Origin: a virus
Direction: 5' to 3' (one strand)
Length of the DNA: 20,424 nucleotides
IMG/VR virus record: IMGVR_UViG_3300032087_001370
Coordinates: 1-20,424 of that record
In this document: positions 617 through 20,089 of the stretch, in pieces
Layout of the letters: every line of letters starts with the position of its first letter
Numbering within the stretch: the stretch's first letter is position 1
Program-made: the position numbers and the translations under genes
The notes under the pieces: model-generated
Told to the model about the DNA's origin: nothing
The model's input: only the letters and a program-made list of their open reading frames with translations
The model's database searches: none

Positions 617-1177
617 CTATTTAATTGGTACACTTTCATCTAATAATATATAAGTATCTTCAAACTTTCTTGCTGAAGCAGGTTGATTTTTTAAAGCGAA
701 ATTAGTTGGGTTTGTCCTTAACAATTTAATATTGTTTTCCAACAAAAATTCTCTTACAGTTGGACCCACTCTTGTAACATATTTATCTTCACCTAATTGA
801 TTTTTAAAATCTGTAAGTAGTTTGGCTTTTAATTTGTCATTTGCTCCTAATACTGAGGATGAAGAAGGTGTTTTAGATAATTCATTTATTCTTTTGTCTA
901 AATTAACAAGTAATTTATCTTTTGGTTTTGCTGTGTTTAATACTTGATTTTGTCCTATTTTTAATAAGTTTTGTAATTTAGATATATTAGAGGTATCAAT
1001 GTTAAATAAATTTTTCTCATTATATCTAGCATATTTAAGTGCATCTTGTTTAGCTTTAGTAGTAAAAATTGCACTTTGTAATCTTTCACTAGGATTTGCA
1101 AGTTGAAAATTAGCACTCTTTATTTCTGTTAATTGTTCAGAGCGTGGTAAACTTCCATGATAAACTGTTTTAGGTAC
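617..1177 (-). other. Possible ADP-ribosyltransferase-like domain at the C terminus of the 1559-residue protein
   Basis: Residues about 1374-1559 carry the order of motifs found in phage-borne, polyvalent-type ADP-ribosyltransferase domains. These are VYHGS (candidate His1380 for NAD binding), then AIFTT followed by DALKYAR (candidate Tyr1422), and a final strand EDTYILLD just before the C terminus, with Glu1546 or Asp1547 as candidates for the third catalytic position. The segment follows a low-complexity Gly-rich hinge near 1310-1370, consistent with a separate domain. This is a motif-level match by eye. The intervening region is Lys/Asn-rich and long, and activity cannot be judged. Confidence 0.5.
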
Positions 1178-4100
1178 ACTAGCTTTTTCAATTACTTCTT
1201 CACCAATTTCTTTAACAGCTTTACCACCTTTAAGTATTCCAAGTCCTGATAAAAATTCTAAAATAGGAGCAACAGGTTTTAAACCTTGCTCTTCTAATGT
1301 TGGTACCCCCTCTGGTAAAATATCTTGTCCTTTTCCTAGAAAACCACCGCCTTCAAATCCTAATCTACTCATCTGCTCTTGGTAAGGTTCACCAGTAAAC
1401 GGGTCAACTCTATCGGCAGGGTTTTCTTTTGTGAATGGTACGTCTGGTCCTTCTATTAGACCGCCTGTTGCATACCCAAGCATTGAATTTTGCGGTTCTT
1501 CTTCTTCTAAAATATTTTCTACTCTAGGAACAACTTCTTCTAATATAGGAACTACATCAGCAGCTTCTCTTACAGTTGTACCTAAACCTTCCATAAATGC
1601 TTCCATCAGAGTCTCATCATCCTCTGCAACAAAATCTGGCTTTGTAACTATTTCTGCCATGTCTTCCATGTAGCCTAACACCGGTGCAATCTGCTCAGTT
1701 ACACTAGAACCATAGTCTGAATATTTAAATATACCTCTAAGCTTATCAATTAAATAAGTATTTAATCCTGAATAGGATAAAGCTTCTCCAGTTTTTTGCA
1801 ATAATGTTTCATCGTTTACACCTTCTTTATATTTTTCATTAGGTGATAAAGCTACTTGAGCCTCTCTAACACTTGCAAAAACTGGTATCGCTGCTGCTAT
1901 TCTTAAAAATAATGCAGCATCTCCTTGCTCAACTCTTGCAATTAACGCATTAGTCTGTGATGTTTTAGCTTGTGCCCATGACATAAAACTTCCTAAGAAT
2001 TTTACATACGGATCTTTTGATTGAGTAAATAATCTTCTATTACCCACCAACGGAATAATTGCATCTCTGTTGGCTGACATAATTCCTGCTTTCTTTAAAT
2101 ATGATCTTGCCATATTGTCTTGTAACGCATCTTCTATGGTTTTAAATTGACTAATATATAAAAAGTTTTCTCTTGATAAACCAAGCGTATCCATTTCTTT
2201 CAATAACGCTTGTTCAGATTTTAAAAATTGTTTAGTCTTACCACGCCCTACTAAGTTTGCAATATCCATAGCTCGGTAAACACCTGCATCGTATGCAAAG
2301 TTTCTAGCAATTCTTGTAACCCTACCAAGCTGTACTGCTTCAAAAAATCTTCTAGTAAAGTCAGTCATTCTTCTTTGGTATTGTCGCATACCAAGTGTAT
2401 CGCCTATTAATAATACATCTGATAATTCTCTTGATAAAACATTATCGTGAATATTATTCCCTAAAAACCTATCTACATAAGTAGCATCTCTACCTTTAAC
2501 TTGTTTTGTTCTTTGATTTAATGCAAGTCCTTCTTTTGAAAGTGGAACAACTTTTCCTTGTCTTGCTTGTATTTGTGTTAGTGCTGATTTTGCAGCAGCC
2601 TTATAACCGCTGTTTGAAAGTGTTTGTAACCAATCACCCATACTTGGTAAAGCTACAAATGTTAGTCTTGTTGTGGCTAATCCAGTTTGTAAAAATGTTG
2701 CAAGTGCTCTAGCTGCATCTCCTGTTGGCATTCTTTCAATGTGATACACACCAAAAAAAGCTTCCAAAGAATCTTTAATTTTTTTCTTTTCCGCTGTTGC
2801 TGCTGCTTTGACACCCGGTACATTATTAAATAAATCTTCTACAGTTTTATATTTATCGTCTTGATTTCTTATGGTATTATTTACTAATCTCAAATATCTT
2901 TTATTTATATCTGTAAATATTTGTTTAATATATTCTCCTCGTGCACCAAATTGTTTTGCAAATTCTGCAATATGTACGCTATTTTTTAGTAATGTTTGAG
3001 TGGTAAGCAATGGATTGCTTTCAAATAAATCTGCTACTGAAGCCCTAGCTTCTTGATCAAATAAAGTTCTATCTTTATCAAAATGTTTTGCAGCTTGTAA
3101 AATAAAATCTTCATCTCGTGGAACAAAGTCTTTATATTTTTCTCCAGCACTATTATTAGTTTTAAATAGTATATCTTCATTGTCTGAAAAAATAGAATTG
3201 GTTCTAACTCTTGATGCAGTTGCTAAATATCCCTCTGCTAATTTTCTACTATCTTTATTTAATGTAGGATATGTTTGTCTAATAAAATCTTTATCTTTTA
3301 ACTGAGCCTTCGTAAGTGTTTTTTTAATATTATCGTTTTGTAAACTAAATGCTTCGCTTAATCTTTTAATATTAGTTTTATAATTTGCAATATCAGAAGC
3401 TTCTGATGTTAAAATTTGAGTTAATCCATAAACATCTTGCTCAATAAAATCTATTCCTCTAGCTTTTATATAGTTTTTAAAGTCTTCATTATACTTATCT
3501 ATGTCTAAAGATAATTTTTCTGCTTCGTTATAGCGTGGATGTAATCTATCTTGTGATGTTAAAAATGAATGTTTTTCAGAAACCAACCCCCTATTATTAC
3601 TTATCTTACCAGCTAATATTAAAATATCATCATCGTATTTACTGAACATATCCGCTGCTCTGTTATTCCAATATGCTAATTGATTCATTGCCTCAACTTC
3701 TACTGGATTAACAGGAGATGTTTTACCCAAGGCTATACCACCACCAAACGGTTGATACATTCGTGTACCAAACTTATTGGCTACTTCATCAGACCAACCC
3801 ATTAAATCTTGAATATGAGAACCAGCTGTAAAACTTTTTAATGTGTTGTACCAAGATCTTTTAAATCCTGCAATAAATTCTTCGTTAGCAGCATTCTTAG
3901 CTTTAACAGGAATTAATTCAAAAGGTTTACTTTGAATAATTTTTTGAACTTTACCAAGTGTAGCACCCATAAGTGCAAAGGTAATCATTCGTCCATTACC
4001 TTCATCTTCTTCGGTAAAACTTGCACCAATACCACCACCAATTAATCCACCAAACAATGGTCTGGTCAATTCTTGAGTTAAAGCTCTAGCAAGTCCTTCA

Positions 4101-5296
4101 TTTAATACACCACCTTTTTGTGCATTAATCATGCTCTTTTGATAAACATCTAATAAATTATCCGGTATTTCTTTAGTATAAATATTTTCAAGCTGTGTAT
4201 TTAATTTATAAATATCATCATTTAATTTAGTTCTTTCAGCTTTTAACTTTTTAACTTCTAACGGATTATTAAATAGTTTAGAATATGTATTATAATCCAT
4301 ATCCCAACTTAAATCTGTATCTAAGGATTTACGTTTTAATCGAGAAGTTTGATTATTTATTTTTTTAATTTCTTCACGTATTTCTAATTTACGTTCTTCA
4401 ATTTTTCTAATTTGTAAATTTACAAAGCCTACATTATTAACAGACTCTTGGGTTTCTAAAAGTGTTTGTTTCCCTACTTGCTCTAACGCTACCGGATTAC
4501 TAATTTCAATATCTGAAATTTTTGTAGGGGCTGGAATATTTACTTCTTTATCAATTTTAGAACCAACACTATTATGTGTCGGAACTTTTTCTCTAATTAC
4601 TTTATTATAAAGAGATATACCTGCTTCACCAATAATACCTCCAGCTATACCAGCTCCTGCTCCCAAAGCAACCACTTCAGGTCTTACTTCACCATATAGT
4701 GCTTCATCACGTATAGCTAAATCAGCAGCACCAAACGCACCTGCTGCTCCGATACTAGCAACTTTACCAGCTTTTGCAATCTTTACCCAAGGCATTAAAA
4801 AAGTTGCTGGATCTGCTAAAGCCAAACCCATTCTACCTGCGGTTACACCGGCAGTTTCTTCTCTTCCTCTAAACTCAGGAAATTCTTCAAATATTTTTTC
4901 TTGTCTTTCTGCTTCGATTCTTGCTCGTGCTTCTTCATAAGTTTCATTTACGTCTAATGCTGAACTTACCACAGCCTCTCCAATTCTAAATAAACTTCCA
5001 AGCACAGTAGGTTCTTGAGCTGCTCCATAAGCAAACTCTCTAGCGAAAGATATTTGGGGTTCTTTAGAACGATTGAAATAGCCAAAACTTAAAGGCTCTG
5101 ATGGCTCTTTTAAAGTTGGTTCTGGAAAAGCAGGAGAAGTAATTTCTGTAACAGCAACTTCTTTATCTCTGTTAAAATAACCTTCCTGTAAATATTCAGG
5201 TTTAACTTGAACCGGTTCTGGCATTATAGGCTGTTTCTCCTGTTCTTCAGGAGATTCTTTCCGATTAAAGTAACCGTAAGTTAAAACTTCAGACAC
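617..5296 (-). CDS. Large internal virion / DNA ejection protein (T7 gp16-like position) with ART-like C terminus
   Basis: A 1559-residue product, probably packaged in the capsid and ejected at infection. The start is GTG at 5296 with AAGGAT six bases upstream. The N terminus has three GYFNR boxes at residues 8-12, 39-43 and 72-76, separated by Pro/Glu-rich linkers. Hydrophobic Gly/Ala-rich stretches follow at about 152-192, 205-226 and 405-450 and could insert into membranes. A long helical body contains FLGSFMSWAQAKTSQ around residue 1130, a type of sequence I associate with large phage internal virion proteins. A GGLIEGPDVPF and NPADRVDPFTGEPY segment lies near 1290-1320. The last about 186 residues look like an ADP-ribosyltransferase fold. 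No N-terminal lytic transglycosylase as in T7 gp16 is evident. It is the last of the putative ejection genes and lies next to the lysozyme gene. The virion role is inferred from size, composition and order; similarity to gp16 is positional. Confidence 0.72.
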   Translation of the reverse strand: MSEVLTYGYFNRKESPEEQEKQPIMPEPVQVKPEYLQEGYFNRDKEVAVTEITSPAFPEPTLKEPSEPLSFGYFNRSKEPQISFAREFAYGAAQEPTVLGSLFRIGEAVVSSALDVNETYEEARARIEAERQEKIFEEFPEFRGREETAGVTAGRMGLALADPATFLMPWVKIAKAGKVASIGAAGAFGAADLAIRDEALYGEVRPEVVALGAGAGIAGGIIGEAGISLYNKVIREKVPTHNSVGSKIDKEVNIPAPTKISDIEISNPVALEQVGKQTLLETQESVNNVGFVNLQIRKIEERKLEIREEIKKINNQTSRLKRKSLDTDLSWDMDYNTYSKLFNNPLEVKKLKAERTKLNDDIYKLNTQLENIYTKEIPDNLLDVYQKSMINAQKGGVLNEGLARALTQELTRPLFGGLIGGGIGASFTEEDEGNGRMITFALMGATLGKVQKIIQSKPFELIPVKAKNAANEEFIAGFKRSWYNTLKSFTAGSHIQDLMGWSDEVANKFGTRMYQPFGGGIALGKTSPVNPVEVEAMNQLAYWNNRAADMFSKYDDDILILAGKISNNRGLVSEKHSFLTSQDRLHPRYNEAEKLSLDIDKYNEDFKNYIKARGIDFIEQDVYGLTQILTSEASDIANYKTNIKRLSEAFSLQNDNIKKTLTKAQLKDKDFIRQTYPTLNKDSRKLAEGYLATASRVRTNSIFSDNEDILFKTNNSAGEKYKDFVPRDEDFILQAAKHFDKDRTLFDQEARASVADLFESNPLLTTQTLLKNSVHIAEFAKQFGARGEYIKQIFTDINKRYLRLVNNTIRNQDDKYKTVEDLFNNVPGVKAAATAEKKKIKDSLEAFFGVYHIERMPTGDAARALATFLQTGLATTRLTFVALPSMGDWLQTLSNSGYKAAAKSALTQIQARQGKVVPLSKEGLALNQRTKQVKGRDATYVDRFLGNNIHDNVLSRELSDVLLIGDTLGMRQYQRRMTDFTRRFFEAVQLGRVTRIARNFAYDAGVYRAMDIANLVGRGKTKQFLKSEQALLKEMDTLGLSRENFLYISQFKTIEDALQDNMARSYLKKAGIMSANRDAIIPLVGNRRLFTQSKDPYVKFLGSFMSWAQAKTSQTNALIARVEQGDAALFLRIAAAIPVFASVREAQVALSPNEKYKEGVNDETLLQKTGEALSYSGLNTYLIDKLRGIFKYSDYGSSVTEQIAPVLGYMEDMAEIVTKPDFVAEDDETLMEAFMEGLGTTVREAADVVPILEEVVPRVENILEEEEPQNSMLGYATGGLIEGPDVPFTKENPADRVDPFTGEPYQEQMSRLGFEGGGFLGKGQDILPEGVPTLEEQGLKPVAPILEFLSGLGILKGGKAVKEIGEEVIEKASVPKTVYHGSLPRSEQLTEIKSANFQLANPSERLQSAIFTTKAKQDALKYARYNEKNLFNIDTSNISKLQNLLKIGQNQVLNTAKPKDKLLVNLDKRINELSKTPSSSSVLGANDKLKAKLLTDFKNQLGEDKYVTRVGPTVREFLLENNIKLLRTNPTNFALKNQPASARKFEDTYILLDESVPIK

Positions 5297-5302
5297 AGTG
5301 GT

Positions 5303-5308
5303 ATCCTT
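5303..5308 (-). promoter_or_regulatory. Ribosome binding site for the GTG-started 1559-residue gene
   Basis: AAGGAT on the minus strand lies six bases before the GTG at 5296 and overlaps the TAA stop of the upstream gene. It supports GTG as the real start and suggests coupling of the two genes. Confidence 0.7.
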
Positions 5309-7208
5309 ATTGTTTGGCTAATAACGAAACGTCTTCACCTTTTAAAGTTGCTAAAACTATTTCAATTTCTTCGGGTGTGGCATTTTGATCAAGATTATAT
5401 TTTTTTAGTAAAGCAGATTTACCACGAACATAAGAAGATCCTTGTGCAAGTTTTTCGAGTCTTTCCATATCGAACTGCATTTGTTTTGTATTATATAGTT
5501 CTTTGACCTCTTCCATACCACGTGAAGCTATCTTAGAACGTTGTTCATCTATATATGCATCTACATCGTCTTGAGACATCTGTGGCATTTGTACATCTTG
5601 TGATGTTTGATTTACTTTTTTCTTTTCTTGCATTTGTAAATTTTGTAAGATTGGTTCAAAAATTAAATCAATTTTCTCAACGTCATCAGGATAGTTTCTT
5701 TTTAATTCGTTAATTGTTTCTTGTCTTTGTATGGGGTTTAATGAAGTAAATTTATTACTCTCTGCCCAAGTTTCTATTTTAATTGGATTAAATTCAGTAT
5801 CATTTTCCTCTTCAGGTTTTTCTTGTCCTTTATCTGCATTAACATTTGCAGCATCACTACTTGTTGATTTTCCTCGTATTAAAAAATCAGAGCCGGGGGG
5901 TATAAATAAAATATCATCTTCATTCCACAGTTGCTCTGCTGTATAAGGAACCGTCTTTCCTAAAATTTTAAAACCTTCTGTGTCTATTTGGTTCATCTTA
6001 AGAAATCTTCCTTCATCACTCCAAATTTGTAATGCTCCATGAATTGATTCTGCTCCTACCAGTGGCTGCTCATTATTTTTTAATAAATTATAATTCATAG
6101 ATAAAATTTGTACAGCTAATGCATTTTGAAATACATCAGATGAAATTGGATTGACTATTGTGTCCTCTCCTTCTTTACTTAATGTTTTAATGTTTTTAAA
6201 TTGTTCAGCTTTAATATTTACTGAAACCGTATTACCTTCTATTTTTTCAGGAATAGTATTTAAATTTGAAATAGTTTCTTTTGCATCAATAATTTCAATA
6301 TTAAATGGTAGGTTAAAAAAGTCTTTATTTACTTTACCTTCTTTAGTTTGTAAAACTTTTAAATTATTATTTCTTTGCTGTAGAACGTCCTCATAATTAA
6401 ATCTTTTTTGAGATTTGATTGCAGCACCATTTAACAACTGTTCTTGAGTATTGTTAATACCAGCCTCATAGTTTAAATCTAATAAAGTTTTTGCAGTATT
6501 TATTTTACTTCTAAAATCATTTCTTTCTTTTTGAGCTTTGTTTAAATTCTCCATTAGCTCTATTTTCTCTGCATTTGTTGAAACTAAGTTTCCTTCTTCA
6601 TCTCGTTTTGTTCTAAAAATTCTATTAAAAGCTGATCTTAATAATCCTTTTTTAGTTGGATCATCTTCTACCGCAGCAAGTGCAGCTAGGTATTCATTTT
6701 TAGCAGCTTCATTATATTTTGTAAACGTTTCATAAGTATTAGTAGGGTCTTTTCTTAAAAGATCTAATTCAACTTTTAATCTATTTTTTTCAGCATCAAA
6801 TACATCTTGTAATAATTTTCTTTCCGCTGGACCGTAGTTTGCTCTATTACCCCAGCTAATATCATTATCAAAAAATTCTGGATTACTATCAATACGTTTA
6901 GCAACTTCTTGATTTAAATAAGATTCACCTAACTGGTCATATTTTTTCAAACGATCTCTGTTTTCTCTAGCACCGTTCCATTCTTCTTTATTGTTTTCAA
7001 AAATATCTGCATATCTTACTTTGACATCCGCTGCTGCATCTACAACATCTTGTTTCTGTTGTTTTTGTAATTGTCCAAAGCTTTCGGTTATAGCAGACAA
7101 TAGTAAAGCTTTGTAAAGTTCATCTTTTTCATTTTTCTTTTTTCTAGATAACAAAGTTCCAGCAACTTGTCCAAACTGTGAACCTGATAAATAATCTTCT
7201 TGTGCCAT
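5307..7208 (-). CDS. Putative internal virion protein, helical, 633 residues
   Basis: The product is rich in Lys, Glu, Asn and Gln, with long predicted helical stretches and no signal peptide or clear membrane segment. The N terminus (MAQEDYLSGSQFGQVAG) is followed by RKKKNEKDE and a Gln/Lys helix around residues 45-60. The middle (about 90-260) is heptad-like and charged, and about 330-460 looks more globular (LGKTVPYTAEQLW, ILFIPPGSDFLIRG). The C-terminal part after residue 480 is again helical and contains QMQEKKKVNQ. I recognise no family. It sits between the 238-residue gene, with which it shares TAATG, and the giant 1559-residue gene. That slot matches the middle ejection protein (gp15) of T7-like phages, and the Gln/Lys-rich helical make-up fits. 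A GGGAG-type Shine-Dalgarno precedes the ATG. The virion role is inferred from context only. Confidence 0.62.
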   Translation of the reverse strand: MAQEDYLSGSQFGQVAGTLLSRKKKNEKDELYKALLLSAITESFGQLQKQQKQDVVDAAADVKVRYADIFENNKEEWNGARENRDRLKKYDQLGESYLNQEVAKRIDSNPEFFDNDISWGNRANYGPAERKLLQDVFDAEKNRLKVELDLLRKDPTNTYETFTKYNEAAKNEYLAALAAVEDDPTKKGLLRSAFNRIFRTKRDEEGNLVSTNAEKIELMENLNKAQKERNDFRSKINTAKTLLDLNYEAGINNTQEQLLNGAAIKSQKRFNYEDVLQQRNNNLKVLQTKEGKVNKDFFNLPFNIEIIDAKETISNLNTIPEKIEGNTVSVNIKAEQFKNIKTLSKEGEDTIVNPISSDVFQNALAVQILSMNYNLLKNNEQPLVGAESIHGALQIWSDEGRFLKMNQIDTEGFKILGKTVPYTAEQLWNEDDILFIPPGSDFLIRGKSTSSDAANVNADKGQEKPEEENDTEFNPIKIETWAESNKFTSLNPIQRQETINELKRNYPDDVEKIDLIFEPILQNLQMQEKKKVNQTSQDVQMPQMSQDDVDAYIDEQRSKIASRGMEEVKELYNTKQMQFDMERLEKLAQGSSYVRGKSALLKKYNLDQNATPEEIEIVLATLKGEDVSLLAKQ

Positions 7209-7924
7209 TACGCTGCTCCCTTATCTAATAAACTTTTTAATTGTGGACTTTTTTCTTTTACCTGCTCCATAATTTCTTGTGGTAATATATTATTATCCAT
7301 ACTAACATTTTTTACAGATGGTGAATTTTTTATTTGTTCAAAAACAGTTTTAAATTCATTAATTTTATTTTGAACATCTTCCTCATCTTCATCAAATTCA
7401 TCTAAATCATCATTATCTATATTGTATTTAATATTTGCTTCTTCACCTATTGCCATCATTAAATACATAGTTGGCTCAATTAATAACAACATTACATCAG
7501 GATTTATTTCTCCTTCAAAAAATTTAGCATACAACACAGCACTTGCTAAATCTCCAACAGATGCTCCGTTTGCTAAAGCTTTGACAATATTTTTCATTGC
7601 TTCTGGCTGCAATAATAATTTAGTAATTTCATTTAAAGCTTCTCTAGGATTAGAAAAAGTAGCAGGTTTTTCCCAAGGATAAGGCGTGTCAGGATTATTG
7701 GTTAAACTTTGACCGGGAATAGATGCACCTGTTCCAGACATACCAACAAGTTCATCCAATGATTCTTGATTAAACTTTCTTTCTCCTCTAACTTTAGGAC
7801 CACGTTCTGGTGCAATTTCTTCAATATCAAATCCTGCATCTAATGCATCTAGTAAAATATCAGCTGATGCATCAGAAACATTTTTAGATATGATAGGTTT
7901 AGGTGGTCGTCTATCTTTAGCCAT
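7208..7924 (-). CDS. Hypothetical protein in the ejection-protein block, acidic C-terminal half
   Basis: A 238-residue product with no recognised family. It begins MAKDRRPPKPIISKN, a basic Pro-rich start. A central helical part (about 85-155) is moderately hydrophobic, including VMLLLIEPTMYLMMAIGEE, which could pack in a core or touch a membrane. An acidic run, DNDDLDEFDEDEED, lies near 170-185, before a Lys/Gln-rich tail. The ATG shares one base with the previous stop (TAATG) and has AGGAG seven bases upstream, so it is probably translated by coupling. It lies between two putative ejection proteins and may be a chaperone, scaffold or minor internal virion protein; the sequence does not decide which. 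Confidence 0.6.
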   Translation of the reverse strand: MAKDRRPPKPIISKNVSDASADILLDALDAGFDIEEIAPERGPKVRGERKFNQESLDELVGMSGTGASIPGQSLTNNPDTPYPWEKPATFSNPREALNEITKLLLQPEAMKNIVKALANGASVGDLASAVLYAKFFEGEINPDVMLLLIEPTMYLMMAIGEEANIKYNIDNDDLDEFDEDEEDVQNKINEFKTVFEQIKNSPSVKNVSMDNNILPQEIMEQVKEKSPQLKSLLDKGAA

Positions 7925-8676
7925 TATGCTACTCCTAGTGTTTCTTGTCTAAATAATTCTGCTGATGCTTGGAATCCGGGATCTCCTGTGCCATAACCAA
8001 GTTGTCCATAAACATCGTTTAATGATATTGTTGTAGTTGGTGCATATACTGCAAGAGGATCTAGTGGACTTCTTCCTTCTACTGCTAATCCAGCCATTTC
8101 ACCAGTAGGGTCTCCACCTAATAGTTCTTGAGTAGCATATCCCGTAGCAACTCCACCAATAACTTGTTTTCCTACTTCTGATATAAATTCACCAGTACCT
8201 GTTTGCCAAAAACCACCTTTAGATGCTGTAGTACTTGCTGGAGCTGGAGTCGTAGGCGTAGGTGTTGTAATTCCAGTAAAGTCTGTAACTGCCCTAGCAC
8301 CACTACCAATAGCTGAACCAACATATTCAAAAGGTTTTGATATTAATTGTGTAGCTGTGTTACCAAGTTTTGCTAATCCTGTAGCACCTTGTCCAAATAA
8401 AGTTCCACCAGTTATCGCAGCACTTTTTGTCATCATCCAGTTTCCAAAAGTTGCCAATGGACCGGAACCAGCCAAAGCTGCACCTCCCGTAAAGGCACTA
8501 AGAGCTGCACCTCCCGTTACCACAATAGCTCCTATGGTAGCAATAGCTTTAAATAGTTTACTTTTGGTAACTTTCTTTACAACTTTACCAACTTTTTTAA
8601 CTACTTTTTTAATTCCTTTACCTACTTTCTTTACAACTTTTTTTAAAGCTTTTCCTATTTTACTAAATAATCCCAC
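7924..8676 (-). CDS. Putative membrane-active internal virion protein with Lys-rich amphipathic N terminus
   Basis: A 250-residue product started at GTG (8676), four bases after a strong GGAGGA. Residues 1-44 form four 11-residue units dominated by Lys and Val (two are KKVVKKVGKGI and KKVVKKVGKVV), predicting a cationic amphipathic helix like that of membrane-active peptides. A hydrophobic Ala/Gly/Val stretch follows at about 44-72 (AIATIGAIVVTGGAALSAF) and can span or insert in a membrane. Thr/Pro-rich linkers lie near 137-152, followed by a Gly-rich C-terminal half. I recognise no family, but the organisation fits the small ejection proteins (T7 gp14 or P22 gp7/gp20 roles) that enter the outer membrane first. 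It could also be an unrelated membrane protein of the virion. Gene position among the internal virion genes supports the ejection reading. Confidence 0.65.
   Translation of the reverse strand: MGLFSKIGKALKKVVKKVGKGIKKVVKKVGKVVKKVTKSKLFKAIATIGAIVVTGGAALSAFTGGAALAGSGPLATFGNWMMTKSAAITGGTLFGQGATGLAKLGNTATQLISKPFEYVGSAIGSGARAVTDFTGITTPTPTTPAPASTTASKGGFWQTGTGEFISEVGKQVIGGVATGYATQELLGGDPTGEMAGLAVEGRSPLDPLAVYAPTTTISLNDVYGQLGYGTGDPGFQASAELFRQETLGVA
8545..8676 (-). repeat. Four 33-bp units encoding Lys/Val 11-residue repeats
   Basis: The first 44 codons divide into four 11-residue units: MGLFSKIGKAL, KKVVKKVGKGI, KKVVKKVGKVV and KKVTKSKLFKA. Units two and three are identical at nine of eleven residues but use different Val and Lys codons, so the protein pattern is held while the DNA has diverged. 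Confidence 0.8.
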
Positions 8677-8677
8677 G

Positions 8678-11600
8678 TTATCCTCCGATAATATCGCCTG
8701 TTATAGAACCTATCAGACCTTTTATATCATTTAAACTTGAACCATACCTTGAAGGGTCACTCGCTAGTGCAGTGTTTACAAGTTGTGCAATTCTGTTTCT
8801 TTCATTTTCAGATGCTCTAAAATCATAATCTGCTTGATCTCTAAGTTCTTGCCATAAAAATGACATAGCTGTTTGAGACATGGCAAAAGCATTCTGAGCA
8901 TTCTGCATATTAATTTGATTCTGCATTGCAGTATTCGCAGTATTAGCCTGTCTTCTCCACTGAACATTAGAAGCTTCAACAGCTGCTCTATTCTGTGCGT
9001 TCCATTGATTTCTTGCAAAATCTTGATTAGCATTAAACTGATCAACTTGCGTATTTAATTGTGCATTAAATTTTTCAACGTCTGCTAATCTTTGTGCATC
9101 TCTAGCAGCAGCAGCATTAGCCTGTGTAGCATTAAACTGGTCAATTGCATTAGCTTGTGAAGCATTGAACTGACTCATCTGAGCTGCAAGACTTGTCATA
9201 AACTGATTAGTCTGTTGTTCGTTAGCAGCATTAAACTGACGTGATGCATTGGTTGCAGCTTCTGCTGATAATATTCTTTGTTGTTCTTGTTGAGCTTTTA
9301 ACATGTTTGCTTGTTGAGCATTGCTAAGATTTGTCATATCCATTTGTAAAAAAGCTTGAGCATTCTGTGCTGCAAGTTTTGTGCGTTGGTCAAGCGTTGC
9401 TAAATCTAACTGAGCCATAGCTGTAGCATTTTGCATAATAGCTTGTTGGTCAGCGTTAAAGTTTGACAATGTTACAGTCTGCATAAACTTACTGTTAGCT
9501 AACTCAACTTGTTGCTCATTGGTAAACTTAGCCATATCCATGTTAGCAACCATGTTAGCATTTTGCATAGCTCTTTGTTGGTCAACATTAAGTTGAGCTA
9601 AACCCATTTGTTGAGCTAACTCACCATTCTTAATATTGATATTCATCTGAGCATTAAGGTTGGCTAACTCAGTTTGCTGTGCAGCATTAAGATTTTCTGA
9701 TGAAGCTTGATTAAGAGCTGTCAAGTTTGCAAGTCTCATCTGTTGTTCATTGCTTAAATTAGCAAGGTCCATTTGCTGTTTAAATCCAGCATTCTTAGAT
9801 AAGAAATCAGCAGCTACTTGCATCTCGGCTAAACGTTCTTGATTAACCGCAGCTTGGTTAGCTCCTTGTACTTGAGCTTCTATTTGAAGTTCTGCAAGAT
9901 TTACTTGTTGCTCGTTACCTAAGTTTTGAGCATTCATTGCCTGTTGGTTTTGAGCATTAAGAACAGCTGCTTGTTGTTGATTTTGCAAGTTAGCTATTCT
10001 TGTTTGCTGCTGTTGCTCTGCTGTAGTTATTACAGCTTGTTGCTCAAACTGGCTCTGCATAACACCCATCTGTTGAGCAAACTGTGCAGTCTGTGATGCA
10101 GCTTCTTGACGGTTTGCCAAGTTCTGCATTCTTAATTGTTGTTGTTGATTTGCTTGTTGTAAATTAGCTTGTTGTTGATTACTAAGATTCTGTGTAGCTC
10201 TTTGCTGTAATGCACTTGCATTGCTTTGTGCAATTGGTAAAGCTGTTTGAATGATAGCATTAAACAATGCATCTCTACCAACTGTTGAAGCAGTTAAACC
10301 TCGCTGTGCCATGTTTTGATTAACAGCATCTACCGCAGGTCTAGCCCATAGTGGTATTTCTCCATCTTCCATCCCACCTAATAATGTTTCAATCTGTGAA
10401 GATACTAAAGCTTCTGTAGGTAATGCAGCAATTGCAGCTTGTACTTCTACTGGCTCGGTATCTACTTGTGCTTCTACTGTTGCTGGGTCTTGAACAATAG
10501 CAGCAGATATTTCTGGTGGTAATGCTGCGGTTTGTGCAACCATTTCAGCAGCAGCACCTTTAGCAGCGGTGCCTTTAACTGCTCTTTGTTTAGCAGCATC
10601 GTAACCTACCATACCCACTATCTGAGATGCTTGTGCATCCGGTGCAGCTTGTCCTGTTAAAGCAGCACGAGTCTGTGCTTCGGCTTGTGGAGTTTCTGAA
10701 ATCTGTGCAGCTACTCCATCTACTTCAGGAACAAAAGCTCCTGCTGAGATAACTGCATCAACTGTTTCAGCCTTTGCAGCGTTTGCAACTTTCTGTGATA
10801 TTTCAGCAGCTTTTGCAGGTCCTGAAAGTTTTCTAATTTCATCTACTTTTGCAATAGATTCAGGTGATAGTTCTCCTAATGCAGCTTGTACGTCTGCTGT
10901 TTGTTCGCTAACAAAAGCATCGTATTCTGCTGGTTGAAAGCTTGGAGGAAGTTGTCCACGTTCTACCATTTGTGCAGTTGTTACTTTTTCTGCTGGAGTT
11001 ACCCCAGCCTCAAAAGCTTGTGCTTCTGCTGTAGGTCTCATAACAGTTCTACGCTGTCTTATATCTTCTCTGACTCTTTCAGCTTCTGGAATAACAGCAG
11101 CCTCTGGAACTTCTCCTCTCGCAGCAGCCTCTGCCATTTGTCTTGCAACATCTTCTTGTCTTTGTTGTTCTACTTGTTCAGGGCTTGGTGTTGGGGCTGG
11201 AGTCGGTGCAGGTGTCGGAGCTGGTGCTGGTGTAAATGTAGGTGTATATGGAAACTCTATCATCTCACCAGTTTCAGGATCAATTCTTGGTGGTCTACCA
11301 AACTGATCATAAGCCTGTTGTCCAGCTTGTGCAGCTGCTTCTCTAATAGCATTAGGATCGAAATCAAAAAGATTTGGCTGCATAGTTACCCTATCTTGAT
11401 TTGCTCCGGGTCTTGGTGCTTCTATTGGTGGTCTTTGTGTTCCTTCAGCTGGAGCAGGTGTAGGACTTGGTTTAACACTAGGACTCGGTGCAGGTCTAGG
11501 TGCAGGTGCTGGACTTGGTGCTGCTCCTCTTGTTGGGTCTTCATCACCTCTTATCGGTCCTCTTCCACCGCCTCCGGGTGTAGGAGCTGGTGCTGGTTGA

Positions 11601-11842
11601 GGTCTTCTTGGCTTCACAGGTTTTGGTTTAGGCTCATTTGGCTTTCTAACAGGTAAAGACCCATCGCCTATACTTTGACCTTTAGGTGGAACTACATTTC
11701 TAGGTGGGTCTATTTCAGGGTTTGGTCTCAAACCTTTAGGAGGCATTCTACCTCCAACAGCTTTAGCCACACGTCCACCTTTGGACATGTCAACTCTCCC
11801 ACCAGTAGTTACTCTAGTTCTGTTACTTTTCTTTTTTGCCAT
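8678..11842 (-). CDS. Giant hendecad-repeat virion protein, Pro-rich N terminus (putative ejection protein)
   Basis: A 1054-residue product with no recognised homologue. The start is the ATG at 11842 with AGGAAAG six bases upstream; a GTG at 11869 would add nine residues but lacks a Shine-Dalgarno. The order is: a basic head with three GGR boxes (about 14-32); Pro-rich tracts (about 34-148 and 199-221, with PAP/PTP repeats); an Ala/Glu-rich part (about 230-540); 44 consecutive 11-residue repeats (541-1024) rich in Asn, Gln and Ala; and a Gly-rich 30-residue tail. The repeats predict a very long helix or right-handed coiled coil. It is the first large gene after the fibre and small genes, and its stop abuts the Lys-rich membrane-active gene, so an internal virion role is the best contextual guess. 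A fibre or tail-needle role cannot be excluded. The overlap of 20 bases with the upstream small gene suggests coupled translation. Confidence 0.68.
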   Translation of the reverse strand: MAKKKSNRTRVTTGGRVDMSKGGRVAKAVGGRMPPKGLRPNPEIDPPRNVVPPKGQSIGDGSLPVRKPNEPKPKPVKPRRPQPAPAPTPGGGGRGPIRGDEDPTRGAAPSPAPAPRPAPSPSVKPSPTPAPAEGTQRPPIEAPRPGANQDRVTMQPNLFDFDPNAIREAAAQAGQQAYDQFGRPPRIDPETGEMIEFPYTPTFTPAPAPTPAPTPAPTPSPEQVEQQRQEDVARQMAEAAARGEVPEAAVIPEAERVREDIRQRRTVMRPTAEAQAFEAGVTPAEKVTTAQMVERGQLPPSFQPAEYDAFVSEQTADVQAALGELSPESIAKVDEIRKLSGPAKAAEISQKVANAAKAETVDAVISAGAFVPEVDGVAAQISETPQAEAQTRAALTGQAAPDAQASQIVGMVGYDAAKQRAVKGTAAKGAAAEMVAQTAALPPEISAAIVQDPATVEAQVDTEPVEVQAAIAALPTEALVSSQIETLLGGMEDGEIPLWARPAVDAVNQNMAQRGLTASTVGRDALFNAIIQTALPIAQSNASALQQRATQNLSNQQQANLQQANQQQQLRMQNLANRQEAASQTAQFAQQMGVMQSQFEQQAVITTAEQQQQTRIANLQNQQQAAVLNAQNQQAMNAQNLGNEQQVNLAELQIEAQVQGANQAAVNQERLAEMQVAADFLSKNAGFKQQMDLANLSNEQQMRLANLTALNQASSENLNAAQQTELANLNAQMNINIKNGELAQQMGLAQLNVDQQRAMQNANMVANMDMAKFTNEQQVELANSKFMQTVTLSNFNADQQAIMQNATAMAQLDLATLDQRTKLAAQNAQAFLQMDMTNLSNAQQANMLKAQQEQQRILSAEAATNASRQFNAANEQQTNQFMTSLAAQMSQFNASQANAIDQFNATQANAAAARDAQRLADVEKFNAQLNTQVDQFNANQDFARNQWNAQNRAAVEASNVQWRRQANTANTAMQNQINMQNAQNAFAMSQTAMSFLWQELRDQADYDFRASENERNRIAQLVNTALASDPSRYGSSLNDIKGLIGSITGDIIGG
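8681..8686 (-). promoter_or_regulatory. Strong ribosome binding site deciding a GTG start
   Basis: GGAGGA lies four bases before GTG at 8676 and within the last codons and stop of the upstream gene (ATCGGAGGATAA). No better start is nearby, so GTG is taken as initiator. Confidence 0.75.
8771..10222 (-). repeat. 44 tandem 33-bp units encoding Asn-led hendecads, no indels
   Basis: Residues 541-1024 can be cut into 44 consecutive 11-mers without a single insertion or deletion. Examples are NLSNEQQMRLA, NLNAAQQTELA, NFNADQQAIMQ, NASQANAIDQF and NAQLNTQVDQF. Position 1 is Asn in most units, positions 6-7 are often Gln-Gln and position 10 is often hydrophobic or Gln. The last 15 units shift to Phe, Trp or Ala/Thr at position 11. 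Conservation is at the protein level; the DNA units are diverged. Confidence 0.85.
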
Positions 11843-12053
11843 TCTTTTCTTTCCTACGTTTAAGTGCACCTAGCACTATCATTATGACTGGACCGCCATG
11901 TTCTTTAGATTTCCTAGGCTTTAGACCGTGTTTAATTCCACGTAACAAACGTAACATGCCTTCAGCTTTTTCAACTGATTTAGCTTCAGCCTTCTTTACC
12001 CAGCGTTTACCACGCTTTACAAAGACTGTTCGACCTTCACGCTTGTATGGCAT
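11823..12053 (-). CDS. Small, strongly basic hypothetical protein (76 residues)
   Basis: The product starts MPYKREGRTVFVKRGKRW and is full of Lys and Arg, including RLLRGIKHGLKPRKSK and a C terminus RRKEKNGKKEK. One short hydrophobic stretch (PVIMIVLGAL, about 55-64) could be a small membrane-touching helix. AGAGGT lies about eight bases before the ATG. The 3' end overlaps the start of the hendecad-repeat gene by 20 bases. Small basic proteins of this kind are frequent in marine phage structural modules; I know of no assigned function. Nucleic-acid or envelope binding would fit its charge but is only a guess. Confidence 0.65.
   Translation of the reverse strand: MPYKREGRTVFVKRGKRWVKKAEAKSVEKAEGMLRLLRGIKHGLKPRKSKEHGGPVIMIVLGALKRRKEKNGKKEK
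11849..11855 (-). promoter_or_regulatory. Ribosome binding site choosing the ATG start of the hendecad-repeat gene
   Basis: AGGAAAG sits six bases before the ATG at 11842. The alternative upstream GTG at 11869 has no such site, so this element decides the start. Confidence 0.7.
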
Positions 12054-12072: not shown

Positions 12073-12312
12073 CTATCTTTCAAACAATTTGTCAAGCTTT
12101 TCATCGATTTTTTGTACACGCTCCATAAGCATTTCAAAATCGTCTTTAAGCTCTTGCTTAGTTACATATTCTTTTGCAAGTTCTTCACGGGTCCTGTTCA
12201 GCAGTATACCGATACGTTGTATCTCATTGCTGTTCTGTCTAATACTATAAAGTAATGGAGCAAGAACAAGCGTTATAAAAACGTTCCAAACGATATACGC
12301 TGACAGTTCCAT
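12073..12312 (-). CDS. Small membrane-anchored coiled-coil protein; candidate holin or spanin component
   Basis: A 79-residue product with one N-terminal hydrophobic segment at about 5-24 (AYIVWNVFITLVLAPLLYSI). The rest is a charged heptad-rich helix (REELAKEYVTKQELKDDF then VQKIDEKLDKLFER), so it looks like a single-pass membrane protein with a coiled-coil stalk. This topology is shared by i-spanins and some small holin-like proteins. With a soluble lysozyme elsewhere in the operon, a membrane lysis partner is expected, and this is the only small one-segment membrane protein in the window. It is, however, about 11 kb from the lysozyme gene, and no outer-membrane lipoprotein partner was found, so a virion or assembly role remains possible. 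The start lies two bases after the previous stop without a clear Shine-Dalgarno. Confidence 0.68.
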   Translation of the reverse strand: MELSAYIVWNVFITLVLAPLLYSIRQNSNEIQRIGILLNRTREELAKEYVTKQELKDDFEMLMERVQKIDEKLDKLFER

Positions 12313-12569: not shown

Positions 12570-15500
12570 TTATTCTCCTAATTTAGATTTAAGTTCTTCT
12601 ACTTGTGCTGATAATTCTTTAACAGCGTTTATTAATACAGGTATAAATTTTGAATAAGTTAATCCATAATTACCATCATTATTTATATCGGTAAGTATAG
12701 CTGTTTCATCTTCTGCTTTATATCCGTATTCTCTTTCGAGTTGTTCAACATCTTGAGCTAATAAGCCACCATGTAGTTGTGATTTTTTATGAGTTCCGTC
12801 AGGTGTAATGCTTAAATCATCAGAGTAATCTGACCGCATATCCCATCTATAAGTAACAGGAGTTAATTGATTAACAAATTGTAATCCCATTGTTAATGGC
12901 TCTATATCTGTTTTATCTCGTTTATCTGAGGTTACAGTCCAATCTACTTTAATATAAGAGTTGGTAATATTATTATCGCCAAGAACTATATTATTTGAAC
13001 CTGTTGTTATTGAGCCTGATGGAGAAGCTGTACGCCCTGCATCTCTACCAATCAAAACATTATTGTCGCCTGTACTAATTTCATATCCTGCTGCCCTACC
13101 AACAATTGTGTTTTGTCCTGCGGTTGTACCTTGTGCAAGAGCAAATTCTCCTATTGCAACATTATCACTTGTAGTTGTTAATGCACTTCCCGCCTCATAA
13201 CCTATGGCGACATTACTACTACCAGTTGTAAGAGCATCTAAACAGTTATAACCTATTCCCACATTAGCTGTACCTGTAGTGTTTACCTCCAATGCACCAT
13301 GTCCAACTGCTACATTATTTGATGCTGTGGTATTAGCACTTAAAGCACTATTACCAACCGCTACATTGAAGCTTCCTGTGGTGTTGGCATCTAAAGTATT
13401 AACACCAACAGCAATATTACCTGCACCTGTAGTGTTTGCTCCAAGTGCATTATATCCAAAAGCATTATTACTATTTGCAGTAGTGGCAGCTACAAGTGCA
13501 TCTTTACCAAAAGCAGAATTAAATTGACCTGATGTATTTGCTGTAAGTGCATCCATACCAACTGCGGTGTTGTAACTTGCGGTATTAGCTCTAAGTGCAT
13601 CTTTACCTACAGCAGTATTGTAATTACCAGTTACATTTAAAAGTAAAGCTGATTTACCTAAAGCTGTATTCTCTGAACCAGTAGTATTGTTAGTTAAAGC
13701 ACCATTTCCTACTGCTGTAAGAGAACTAGCGGTTGTATTACTTGCTAAAGCGGTATTACCAACAGCCACATTCTCAATACCTGTAGTGTTTGCTGTAAGT
13801 GCTTGATAACCAACTGCTGTGTTATTATTTGCTATCGTATTAGCAGTTAATGTTCCGTGACCTAATGCAACATTTGCAACTCCTGTAGTATTTGCTGCTA
13901 AACTATATGCACCAACTGCAACACTTTCATTACCAGTTGTGTTTACTGCAAGTGCTGTCCTACCGACTGCGACATTGTTTGAAGCGGTGGTATTGGCTGA
14001 TAAAGCAGCATAACCAATAGCTACATTATCGTTTCCTGATATATTAGCATCTAAAGCTTGTGAGCCGATACCTGTATTTCTAATTCCAGTAGTATTATCA
14101 CCTAATGCTAGGCGACCCAAAGCTGTGTTTTCAGTACCTGTGGTGTTTGACCCAAGTGAACTGTAACCTATTGCGGTATTATTGCTTCCAGTTGTATTAG
14201 CATCTAAAGTTAAACCACCCACGGCTGTGTTGTTTGTACCAGTTGTGCTTACAACCATAGAGCCATAACCAACCGCAGTATTATACATATCAACATTTGT
14301 AGCGGGTTCTTGATATCTTAAAGTTGCATAACCAACCGCAACACTTCTATCTCCAATAGTATTGGTTTCTAAAGCTAAAGGACCTAAAGCAACATTCAAA
14401 TTACCTGTGGTGTTTGCATTTAAGGCATTATATCCTGCTGCAAGATTGTAATCAGCTGTGGTATTTGCTGATAAAGCACCTCTACCTAGAGCTGTGTTTT
14501 GACTTCCAGTAGTATTGTCATCCAAAGATGCATAACCTAATGCTGTGTTATTATTTGCTGTTGTGTTTGCTGCTAAAGCTGCATAACCTACTGATGTATT
14601 ACTTGCACCTGTGGTGTTTGCTCCAAGTGAGTTATAACCAACTGCTGTGTTAGCGTTTGCGGTGGTATTGGCATCAAGTGCATTTGCACCTACAGCCACA
14701 TTCTGAGCACCTGAAGTGTTATCTGTAAGTGCAGCGTAACCAACAGCTGTGTTGTTATCTGCTGTAGTGTTAGCATCTAAGGCTAAAGAACCAACTGCTA
14801 CATTTGAAGTACCTGTAGTGTTTAACAATAAAGCACTTTTTCCAATAGCTGTGTTGTTATCTGCAGTTGTGTTTGCTGACAAAGCTAACTGACCAATAGC
14901 TATATTATTACTGCCTGTGGTGTTAGCGTCTAAAACCCTATCTCCCACGCCTGTATTATTAGCACCTGTAGTGTTTGCTGAAAGAGCAAGATATCCTACT
15001 CCAGTATTACTACTAGCAGTTGTTGCAGCATCTAAAGCAGCATAACCTAAAGCTGTATTATTACCCCCTGTCGTATTCCTTGCTAATGAATTGTGACCAA
15101 GAGCAGTATTGTTTGCACCACTAGTATTATCTGTTAATGCAGCATTACCAATAGCAGTATTGTTATTACCGCTAAGAGAACCATCATCTAAAGCAGTATT
15201 ACCAAGTGCAACATTATTAGAACCAGTCGGATAATTACCATCAAGTTTGATAGTTCCATTCACATCTAAGGTTGCGGATGGGTTTGTTACATTTATACCA
15301 ACATTAGCTCCACCAATATTTAAACCTGATGTGGTGGTTTCAAAATAAGAATGAACAGCTCCATTTTTTGCAAAAGTTAGTTGTCTAACAGAAGCAGTAT
15401 CATCTCTAGCTAAATTAATGTAACCTCTTCCAATTTCTGCGGTATTTAAATCTGCTGGAGTACCACCAGCTCCAACTGAAGTAAAATCTCCGCTAGTTAT

Positions 15501-19321: not shown

Positions 19322-20089
19322 TTAAAAATATCTTCTATCGTCTGTCATAACTCTTGGAGTTGGATTCATAAGATTAGACTTCATATGTTTCATAGCCTTC
19401 TTATGGTCTTCAAGAGCAAATGCAGCTTGTTGTGGGCTTTCTTTAAACTGCCACACATAGTAACGTACTCGTGATGTGATAACGTTACTATATTGTTCGG
19501 GGAACACTATGGTGTCCGTGTAAGCACTAAGCTTTGTTGGCTTAGTAAATGCATAAAAATGCACATTATAAACTTTATCAGGAATTGGGCTTAAGCCAAA
19601 CTTCCTTGAGTCAGGTGATTTAATAACTCGTATTGGCTCACCATAAGCCTGTGTATCAGCATCGTCAGCATTCTCGCTGTCTCTGTAATATCTTTTCCAA
19701 TCTTCGTGATTGATAAACTTTAAACCTTTAGAGACATACGGTGCTGTTTCACCACTAACATTAATCGTGGTGAGATAAAAATCATCCCAGTCTATAGAAC
19801 CATAATCGTCTGCTAGACTTGAACTACCAGCTTTAAGCAGATACCATCTTGTACCTGCTACGGTTGCTACTGTTACGTTACCATAGAAAGGGTCAGTAGC
19901 ACCACTAAGACCTGCTGAAAGGAACGGTAATTGTGGTTCTTCGTTTGCTATATCAAATATAGATTTATTGACCGCATCCTTGACAAACTGTTGAAGTCCT
20001 GTAGCACTTGCAAAGTTTGCAGCTGTCAATGGAATTTCATTGAGTTCTCTTAGAACTTCGTTAGTTATATCAAGATATGTTGTAGCCAT
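19322..20089 (-). CDS. Tail tubular protein A / head-tail adaptor (T7 gp11-like)
   Basis: A 255-residue product that probably forms the ring joining portal to tail. The N-terminal helical part (LDITNEVLRELNEIPL, then FVKDAVNKSIFDIANEE) and the C-terminal helices (FPEQYSNVITSRVRYYVWQF, ending in TPRVMTDDRRYF) resemble tail tubular A proteins of T7-like and marine podoviruses. The middle third (about 55-190) is beta-rich and longer than in T7 gp11 (196 residues). It is followed seven bases later by the stabilization-type protein, the gene 11-12 pairing of T7-like phages. The ribosome binding site is weak. Confidence 0.82.
   Translation of the reverse strand: MATTYLDITNEVLRELNEIPLTAANFASATGLQQFVKDAVNKSIFDIANEEPQLPFLSAGLSGATDPFYGNVTVATVAGTRWYLLKAGSSSLADDYGSIDWDDFYLTTINVSGETAPYVSKGLKFINHEDWKRYYRDSENADDADTQAYGEPIRVIKSPDSRKFGLSPIPDKVYNVHFYAFTKPTKLSAYTDTIVFPEQYSNVITSRVRYYVWQFKESPQQAAFALEDHKKAMKHMKSNLMNPTPRVMTDDRRYF

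Follow-up and report, generated by a model that had tools for sequence, protein, structure and literature searches.

The array gene and its surroundings

The window, by which we mean the whole 20,424-nucleotide stretch of viral DNA analyzed here, carries on its minus strand a gene (8678..11842; ATG at 11842, alternative GTG at 11869) for a protein of 1054 residues, of which full-length relatives are known. Its N-terminal region (residues 1-436; 10535..11842, minus strand) is variable, rich in proline and alanine and mostly predicted to be disordered, and it is short or absent in small homologues. A conserved helical domain follows (residues 440-536; 10235..10525, minus strand), which stands out by its invariant columns and a pLDDT of ~68-82, and which includes W499, RGL514-516 and the PIAQ anchor at 536. 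Next comes an array of 42 unbroken 11-residue units, or hendecads (residues 537-998; 8849..10234, minus strand), delimited by lag-11 autocorrelation and a circular HMM, and the protein ends in a C-terminal tail (residues 999-1054; 8681..8848, minus strand), at which end the homologues of phages CRP-3 and CRP-738 have an S74 chaperone domain. Within the array, one aromatic residue per 11 residues forms a Phe/Trp ladder (F870, F881, F892, F903, (R914), F925, F936, W947; 9002..9235, minus strand) that resembles the marks of tape-measure proteins (TMPs). Searches of the profile libraries Pfam, PHROGs and NCBIfam and of PDB sequences gave no match for the array protein. A single PDB match with E below 0.001 falls within a proline-rich stretch and was discarded, as were the PDB matches of the A2 profile, which amount to TolA-like low-complexity similarity. 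An Rfam search of the window gave no match either. A copy of the array protein with 100% identity is encoded by a second IMG/VR record, IMGVR_UViG_3300031977_000306 (38,050 bp), and the two records therefore probably come from one virus population.

The array gene heads a cassette of five genes plus a lysozyme gene, and it does so in the position that ejection proteins occupy in podoviruses. The second gene (7924..8676, minus strand) encodes 250 residues with a cationic amphipathic N-terminus and then a hydrophobic segment, as seen in the sequence, and it too has relatives. The third (7208..7924, minus strand; 238 residues) is the best-conserved partner, adjoining the array gene in nearly all relatives. 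The fourth (5307..7208, minus strand; 633 residues) and the fifth (617..5296, minus strand; 1559 residues), a large protein of virion type, were assigned by homology, and a phage lysozyme (157..639, minus strand; PF00959, E=4.6e-8) completes the set. Among relatives, the recurring order is the array gene, small genes, and then genes for ~160-240, ~370-930 and ~800-1670 residues; this order is kept in HMO-2011, HTVC103P, CRP-345, Slicky01, MQM1 and phiM6, with varying sizes and small extra genes. The ejection-protein context proposed in the first-pass annotation is thus borne out, since the array gene lies inside a cassette of that type.

The large fifth protein differs in make-up between relatives. 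Its homologue in HTVC103P has a C-terminal lysozyme domain (E 8.5e-9), so that a single gene of that phage (17883-22895) encodes the lysozyme together with the large cassette protein, whereas the window has it as a separate neighbor gene, and the syntenic counterpart in HTVC033P has an LPD38 polyvalent-protein domain. In the window, the first 80 residues of the 1559-residue protein contain three near-identical GYFNR(K/D/S)KE-like motifs, possibly a docking motif. An ADP-ribosyltransferase at its C-terminus, suspected by eye, found no support.

Upstream of the array gene lie a tail fiber gene with an S74 domain, a tail protein gene and a gene for an SU10-type adaptor, as in short-tailed phages. 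The adaptor (19322..20089, minus strand; PF24175 SU10_adaptor, E=1.6e-10) marks the phage, by this profile match, as being of podovirus type. The 1710-residue tail fiber (12570-17702, minus strand) contains dozens of NNTA(V/L)GxxALxANTTG-type repeats of ~21-24 residues, with the S74 domain at its end; by eye, these repeats look like YadA-type head repeats. Between the fiber and the array gene, a 79-residue protein (12073..12312, minus strand), conserved in many relatives at this place immediately upstream of the array gene, combines an N-terminal membrane segment with a coiled coil and is a candidate holin or spanin, or a candidate partner of the array protein.

Two members of the family provide a link to ejection proteins for which there is experimental evidence. 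In CRP-3 and CRP-738, an S74 domain follows the array, and this domain finds matches in DNA ejection proteins from Salmonella phage 7-11 and its relatives (by tblastn) as well as in phrog_4287, which is also matched by gp21 and gp22 of Kuravirus SU10. The SU10 proteins gp20-24 are virion components that are no longer there once the genome has been released (PMC9509320). Beyond the S74 domain, profile comparisons of the four neighbor proteins with the SU10 and 7-11 ejection proteins gave no similarity, and the pre-array domain did not align with the same ejection proteins. The C-terminal half gave a 91% match to the S74-bearing set, which was rejected, being due to the S74 rows only. Assignment of the array protein to the ejection-protein class is therefore supported by context, namely gene order, protein sizes and the S74 domains of two relatives, and not by demonstrated homology. 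A search of the available literature found no report of virion proteomics for the HMO-2011-type group.

An eleven-residue register kept across the family

The first-pass annotation had described 44 hendecads over residues 541-1024, which correspond exactly to positions 10222-8771 on the minus strand when counted from the ATG at 11842. Its account of their composition is reproduced, with N at position 1 in 28/44 units, Q at position 6 in 21/44 and at position 7 in 29/44, and an often hydrophobic position 10 (L, M, I and A being frequent). Over the same residues, identity at lag 11 is 0.230, compared with 0.116 after shuffling (z 8.5). Lags 22, 33, 44 and 55 also peak (z 9.5, 8.5, 10.0 and 7.3, respectively), and none of the remaining lags up to 60 exceeds z 1.6. 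Lags 7 (z -1.9) and 18 are at or below expectation, indicating the absence of heptads. A circular 11-state HMM recovers a single unbroken array of 42.0 units over residues 537-998, with no phase shift inside it even at a shift prior of 1% per residue. Forty-two of the 44 units are thus backed by the model, and the last two, at ~1003-1024, are off consensus; the spacing of 55 (5 x 11) residues between W962 and R1017 is nonetheless retained by most relatives. The consensus unit is roughly N-A/L-Q-N/A-x-Q-Q-hydrophobic-x-L/M/Q-A/F. Because Tandem Repeats Finder reports no 33-bp array at the hendecad region, the repeat is old, not recent, at the DNA level.

Similarity searches place the array protein in a family that lacks annotation and occurs in marine podoviruses of the HMO-2011 type. 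Among annotated phages, tblastn finds relatives in 26 records, nearly all of them labeled hypothetical protein, from HMO-2011, HTVC103P, HTVC104P and HTVC115P, HTVC033P, Roseobacter CRP phages and Vibrio CHOED to Aeromonas MQM1 and 1233, Pseudoalteromonas Slicky01, Sinorhizobium phiM6 and Rhizobium phages. IMG/VR adds more than 550 related stretches among the matches listed, and contigs from bacterial MAGs or single cells another 13 relatives. The carrier is a common type of marine short-tailed virus of bacteria.

For comparison across the family, we used 180 non-redundant relatives. Arrays are complete in 171/180 proteins and form a single unbroken segment in 162/171; eight of the nine others have a short extra N-terminal match, and the array of CRP-3 is shifted by 2 near its end. 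Array length varies five-fold, from ~16 to ~84 units. The 42-unit class of the window has 33 members by anchor distance, HMO-2011 types have 24 units, another class has 25, and even two Pelagibacter phages differ, HTVC033P having 17 units and HTVC103P 32. The arrays of phiM6 and CRP-1 have ~22 and ~29 units, respectively. An alignment-free measure of register is the spacing between two anchors, the proline of the PIAQ.(D/N)A motif that immediately precedes the array and W962, close to where the array ends. In 150/152 proteins, this spacing is congruent to 8 modulo 11, with observed values of 162, 173, 184, 217, 228, 239, 305, 316, 360, 426, 536, 646 and 866; the exceptions, CRP-3 and phiM6, are each congruent to 10 modulo 11. 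The earlier statement that the array is free of indels is therefore right for phase and wrong for length.

The constant register is not inherited from one single length, since a tree of the flanking segments requires 19 length changes, an approximate count (the tree search was quick and its rows include shared array ends), and 15 length classes need at least 14. Units have been gained and lost whole, and the register has been kept across the family. Above 316, most anchor-distance classes are spaced by multiples of 110 residues. The longest arrays (L102, L120 and L103; 61-84 units) contain a 55/110-residue super-repeat, seen as a super-period at both 5 and 10 units (compared with shuffled units, z reaches 9.8).

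Conservation is concentrated in the same parts of the protein. In comparisons with four relatives, in which all 462 array codons align gap-free, dN/dS is 0.09-0.20 for the array and 0.09-0.18 for the pre-array domain, compared with 0.36-0.63 for the N-terminal Pro/Ala-rich part and 0.31-0.75 for the tail. The array and the domain preceding it are the constrained parts and are under strong purifying selection. Together with the constant anchor distance, this supports the earlier suggestion that the register is real and selected.

Composition and selection bear on two further explanations. As 35% of array residues are N or Q, and as pLDDT is low in places, one might take the array for a linker of disordered or low-complexity sequence in which the period survives as a relic of past duplication. 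This is hardly credible, as the 462 residues include no proline and only six glycines, purifying selection is strong, long helices are predicted in two members, and a relic would not need to keep its register through ~18 length changes. Alternatively, the product of this late structural gene could be an internal scaffolding, head-core or DNA-organizing protein that is retained in the head, and long helical arrays do occur in scaffolds as well. We consider this very improbable: the array is near neutral (24 K+R and 32 D+E) and therefore gives no sign of DNA condensation, and its gene, as a member of the ejection cassette, follows the tail genes.

Predicted helices and a possible path for DNA

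The helices proposed earlier are predicted for the window protein and for one homologue by AlphaFold2. The monomer model of the window protein has helices across almost all of the array, one of them 210 residues long (819-1028), with an array pLDDT of ~35-82 and a pTM of 0.27. The model of a 24-unit homologue, based on 47 aligned sequences, is helical throughout, with one helix of 124 residues, an array pLDDT of ~38-86 and a pTM of 0.28. Both models include array stretches with a pLDDT of 35-50. The predicted fold of the array is thus helical, and such monomer models speak against disorder and say nothing on packing. A Foldseek search of the window model against the PDB returned no match with E <= 0.001, which is expected at a pTM of 0.27.

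When the array is plotted on an 11/3 helical wheel, its hydrophobic residues cluster into two faces that lie opposite each other (~129 and ~298 degrees); the amides are found at positions 3 and 7, and most charges lie on the side of positions 5 and 9. This is what the wall of a barrel might look like. The wheel was convincing at first, but we dropped it as proof of a barrel and take it as a hint only, because permutation of the 11 positions gave P values of 0.14-0.17 for hydrophobicity and 0.035 for charge. A single hydrophobic core stripe, either heptad or of the a/d/h hendecad type, is absent from the array (first-harmonic power ~0.01).

The missing stripe is of importance for the idea that the array protein forms an external fiber or whisker, held together as a trimeric coiled coil. 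S74 domains usually chaperone homotrimeric fibers, two homologues have such a domain, and the array gene comes after the tail-fiber gene in the window. However, S74 domains are equally present on ejection proteins, the array gene lies inside the ejection cassette, and the hydrophobic residues form two opposite faces instead of one core, with lag 7 below expectation. An external fiber is therefore improbable.

We think it probable that the array protein is an ejection (pilot) protein, which is packaged and expelled and which, as a helical rod, helps form the path of the DNA across the envelope. It would be produced alongside the virion proteins, packed inside the head, and released via the portal ahead of or together with the DNA. 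Its 42 hendecads would form an alpha-helical rod of great length, almost straight and rich in amides. A number of these rods would associate side by side, the four following gene products and the lysozyme would join in, and the assembled proteins would serve as a transient path for DNA through the envelope. The array would act like the repeat part of a siphophage TMP or like the phiX174 H tube. The 11-residue period, corresponding to three turns, would keep the faces of the helix aligned with those of neighboring helices along the full length. This would account for gain and loss of whole units, because an indel of any length other than a multiple of 11 would turn the whole of the helix that follows. 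Packaging, ejection, oligomer formation and DNA contact are what we infer for the protein; the array may fold back, be wound up in the head, or have a role as ruler or leader.

If straight, an array of 42 units would measure ~69 nm and one of 84 units 139 nm, for a family range of 26-139 nm at 1.65 nm per unit. The first-pass annotation had considered a conduit of ~70 nm spanning the periplasm. Such a conduit is disfavored, as the five-fold range of ~16-84 units among relatives speaks against a tube sized to the periplasm, and as array length does not track envelope width, given the 17 and 32 units of the two Pelagibacter phages. Another reading, possible in our eyes but doubtful, has short-tailed marine phages pack a tape-measure-like helical protein that builds a modular, length-quantized DNA injection tube outside the head, with an ejected length of ~26-139 nm that changes in whole steps of 11, often 110, residues.

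Whatever the exact arrangement, the family offers a natural series of lengths, ~16-84 units, in which register is strictly kept. How the length of a transient injection conduit is set, and whether ejection proteins work as rods, tubes or rulers, is a question of long standing that can therefore be tested by adding or removing whole units.

Relation to tape-measure proteins, phiX174 H and podoviral ejection proteins

The closest precedent for the array is found in siphophages. In some long-tailed phages, the TMP contains 11-residue repeats that differ in number and bear W/F marks, and in one prophage TMP, 825 residues make up 75 units that align in parallel without gaps (PMC3271669). It is believed that such TMPs are ejected and form a channel for DNA, and replacement of a repeat by 11 alanines in the TMP of TP901-1 had little effect, suggesting that periodicity outweighs side chains (PMC5099701). 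Like these proteins, the array protein has a long unbroken tandem array, whole-unit copy changes, aromatics at one register position and predicted helices. Unlike them, it belongs to a short-tailed phage without a tail tube, its units are rich in Asn and Gln, its gene is part of an ejection cassette, its runs of F/W marks do not exceed 6, and there is no sequence similarity: tblastn finds only its own family, and no TMP profile in PHROG, Pfam or NCBIfam matches.

The likeness could go further, in that the array may serve as a leader strand or ruler in the head, portal or tail channel, leading the DNA out while being coated or chaperoned via its Phe/Trp ladder, so that no tube wall in the envelope is needed. 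Such a tape-measure-like pilot would fit the combination of 11-residue units, aromatic marks and whole-unit copy changes, which is a TMP hallmark (PMC3271669), as well as the length classes 110 residues apart and the super-repeats of the longest arrays. It would also fit the distribution of aromatics, since 32-45% of units have F or W at position 11 in the C-terminal two fifths of the arrays and hardly any do so in the first two fifths, with runs at spacing 11 of 4-6 in most members as compared with a shuffled mean of ~1.6. On the other hand, a short-tailed phage has no tail tube to measure, and the TMP pattern of seven consecutive F/W marks (PMC3271669) occurs in 0/181 proteins, the longest run being 4 in the window and 6 overall. 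With TMP sequence and profile matches lacking as well, we regard this alternative as unlikely.

The H protein of phiX174 forms a decameric alpha-helical tube with hendecads and a lumen lined by Asn, Gln and Arg (PMC7354561). It shares with the array protein amide-rich hendecad helices (H units are of the QKELTKMQLDN type), and it delivers the genome across the envelope. The two differ in that H has 3 hendecads, a transition and then 11 heptads in a 17 nm tube of an ssDNA microvirus, whereas the array protein has 42 hendecads and no heptads. There is no homology between them, and the barrel is known for H, whereas the array protein is known from its sequence and from monomer models.

With the podoviral ejection proteins (T7 gp14/15/16, P22 gp7/16/20 and SU10 gp20-24; PMC8954989, PMC9509320), the array protein has in common its place in the cassette, the order of the genes, in relatives a large partner that bears a lysozyme or polyvalent-protein domain, and, in two relatives, an S74 domain as in gp20 of phage 7-11. 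It differs from them by the lack of detectable sequence similarity except for S74, and the proteins of phages 7-11, AH02 and DB2 with which it was compared are without an 11-residue array. The same array is found in its direct homologues HMO-2011 gp25, HTVC103P gp59, CHOED gp13, MQM1 gp18 and phiM6 gp25, all listed as 'hypothetical protein', which have ~22 to 32 units compared with 42 in the window, and in which the N-terminal region is variable.

The earlier view that no phage ejection protein of such architecture has been described overlooks the siphophage TMPs (PMC3271669, PMC5099701) and the hendecads of phiX174 H (PMC7354561). As these precede it, the array protein does not make a category of its own and is instead a new form, in short-tailed phages, of something already described. 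What is new is that abundant marine podoviruses have a TMP-like array in their ejection cassette, and this suggests that one design rule, an 11-residue, three-turn helix, is common to TMPs, the pilot tube of phiX174 and a probable ejection protein of podoviruses.
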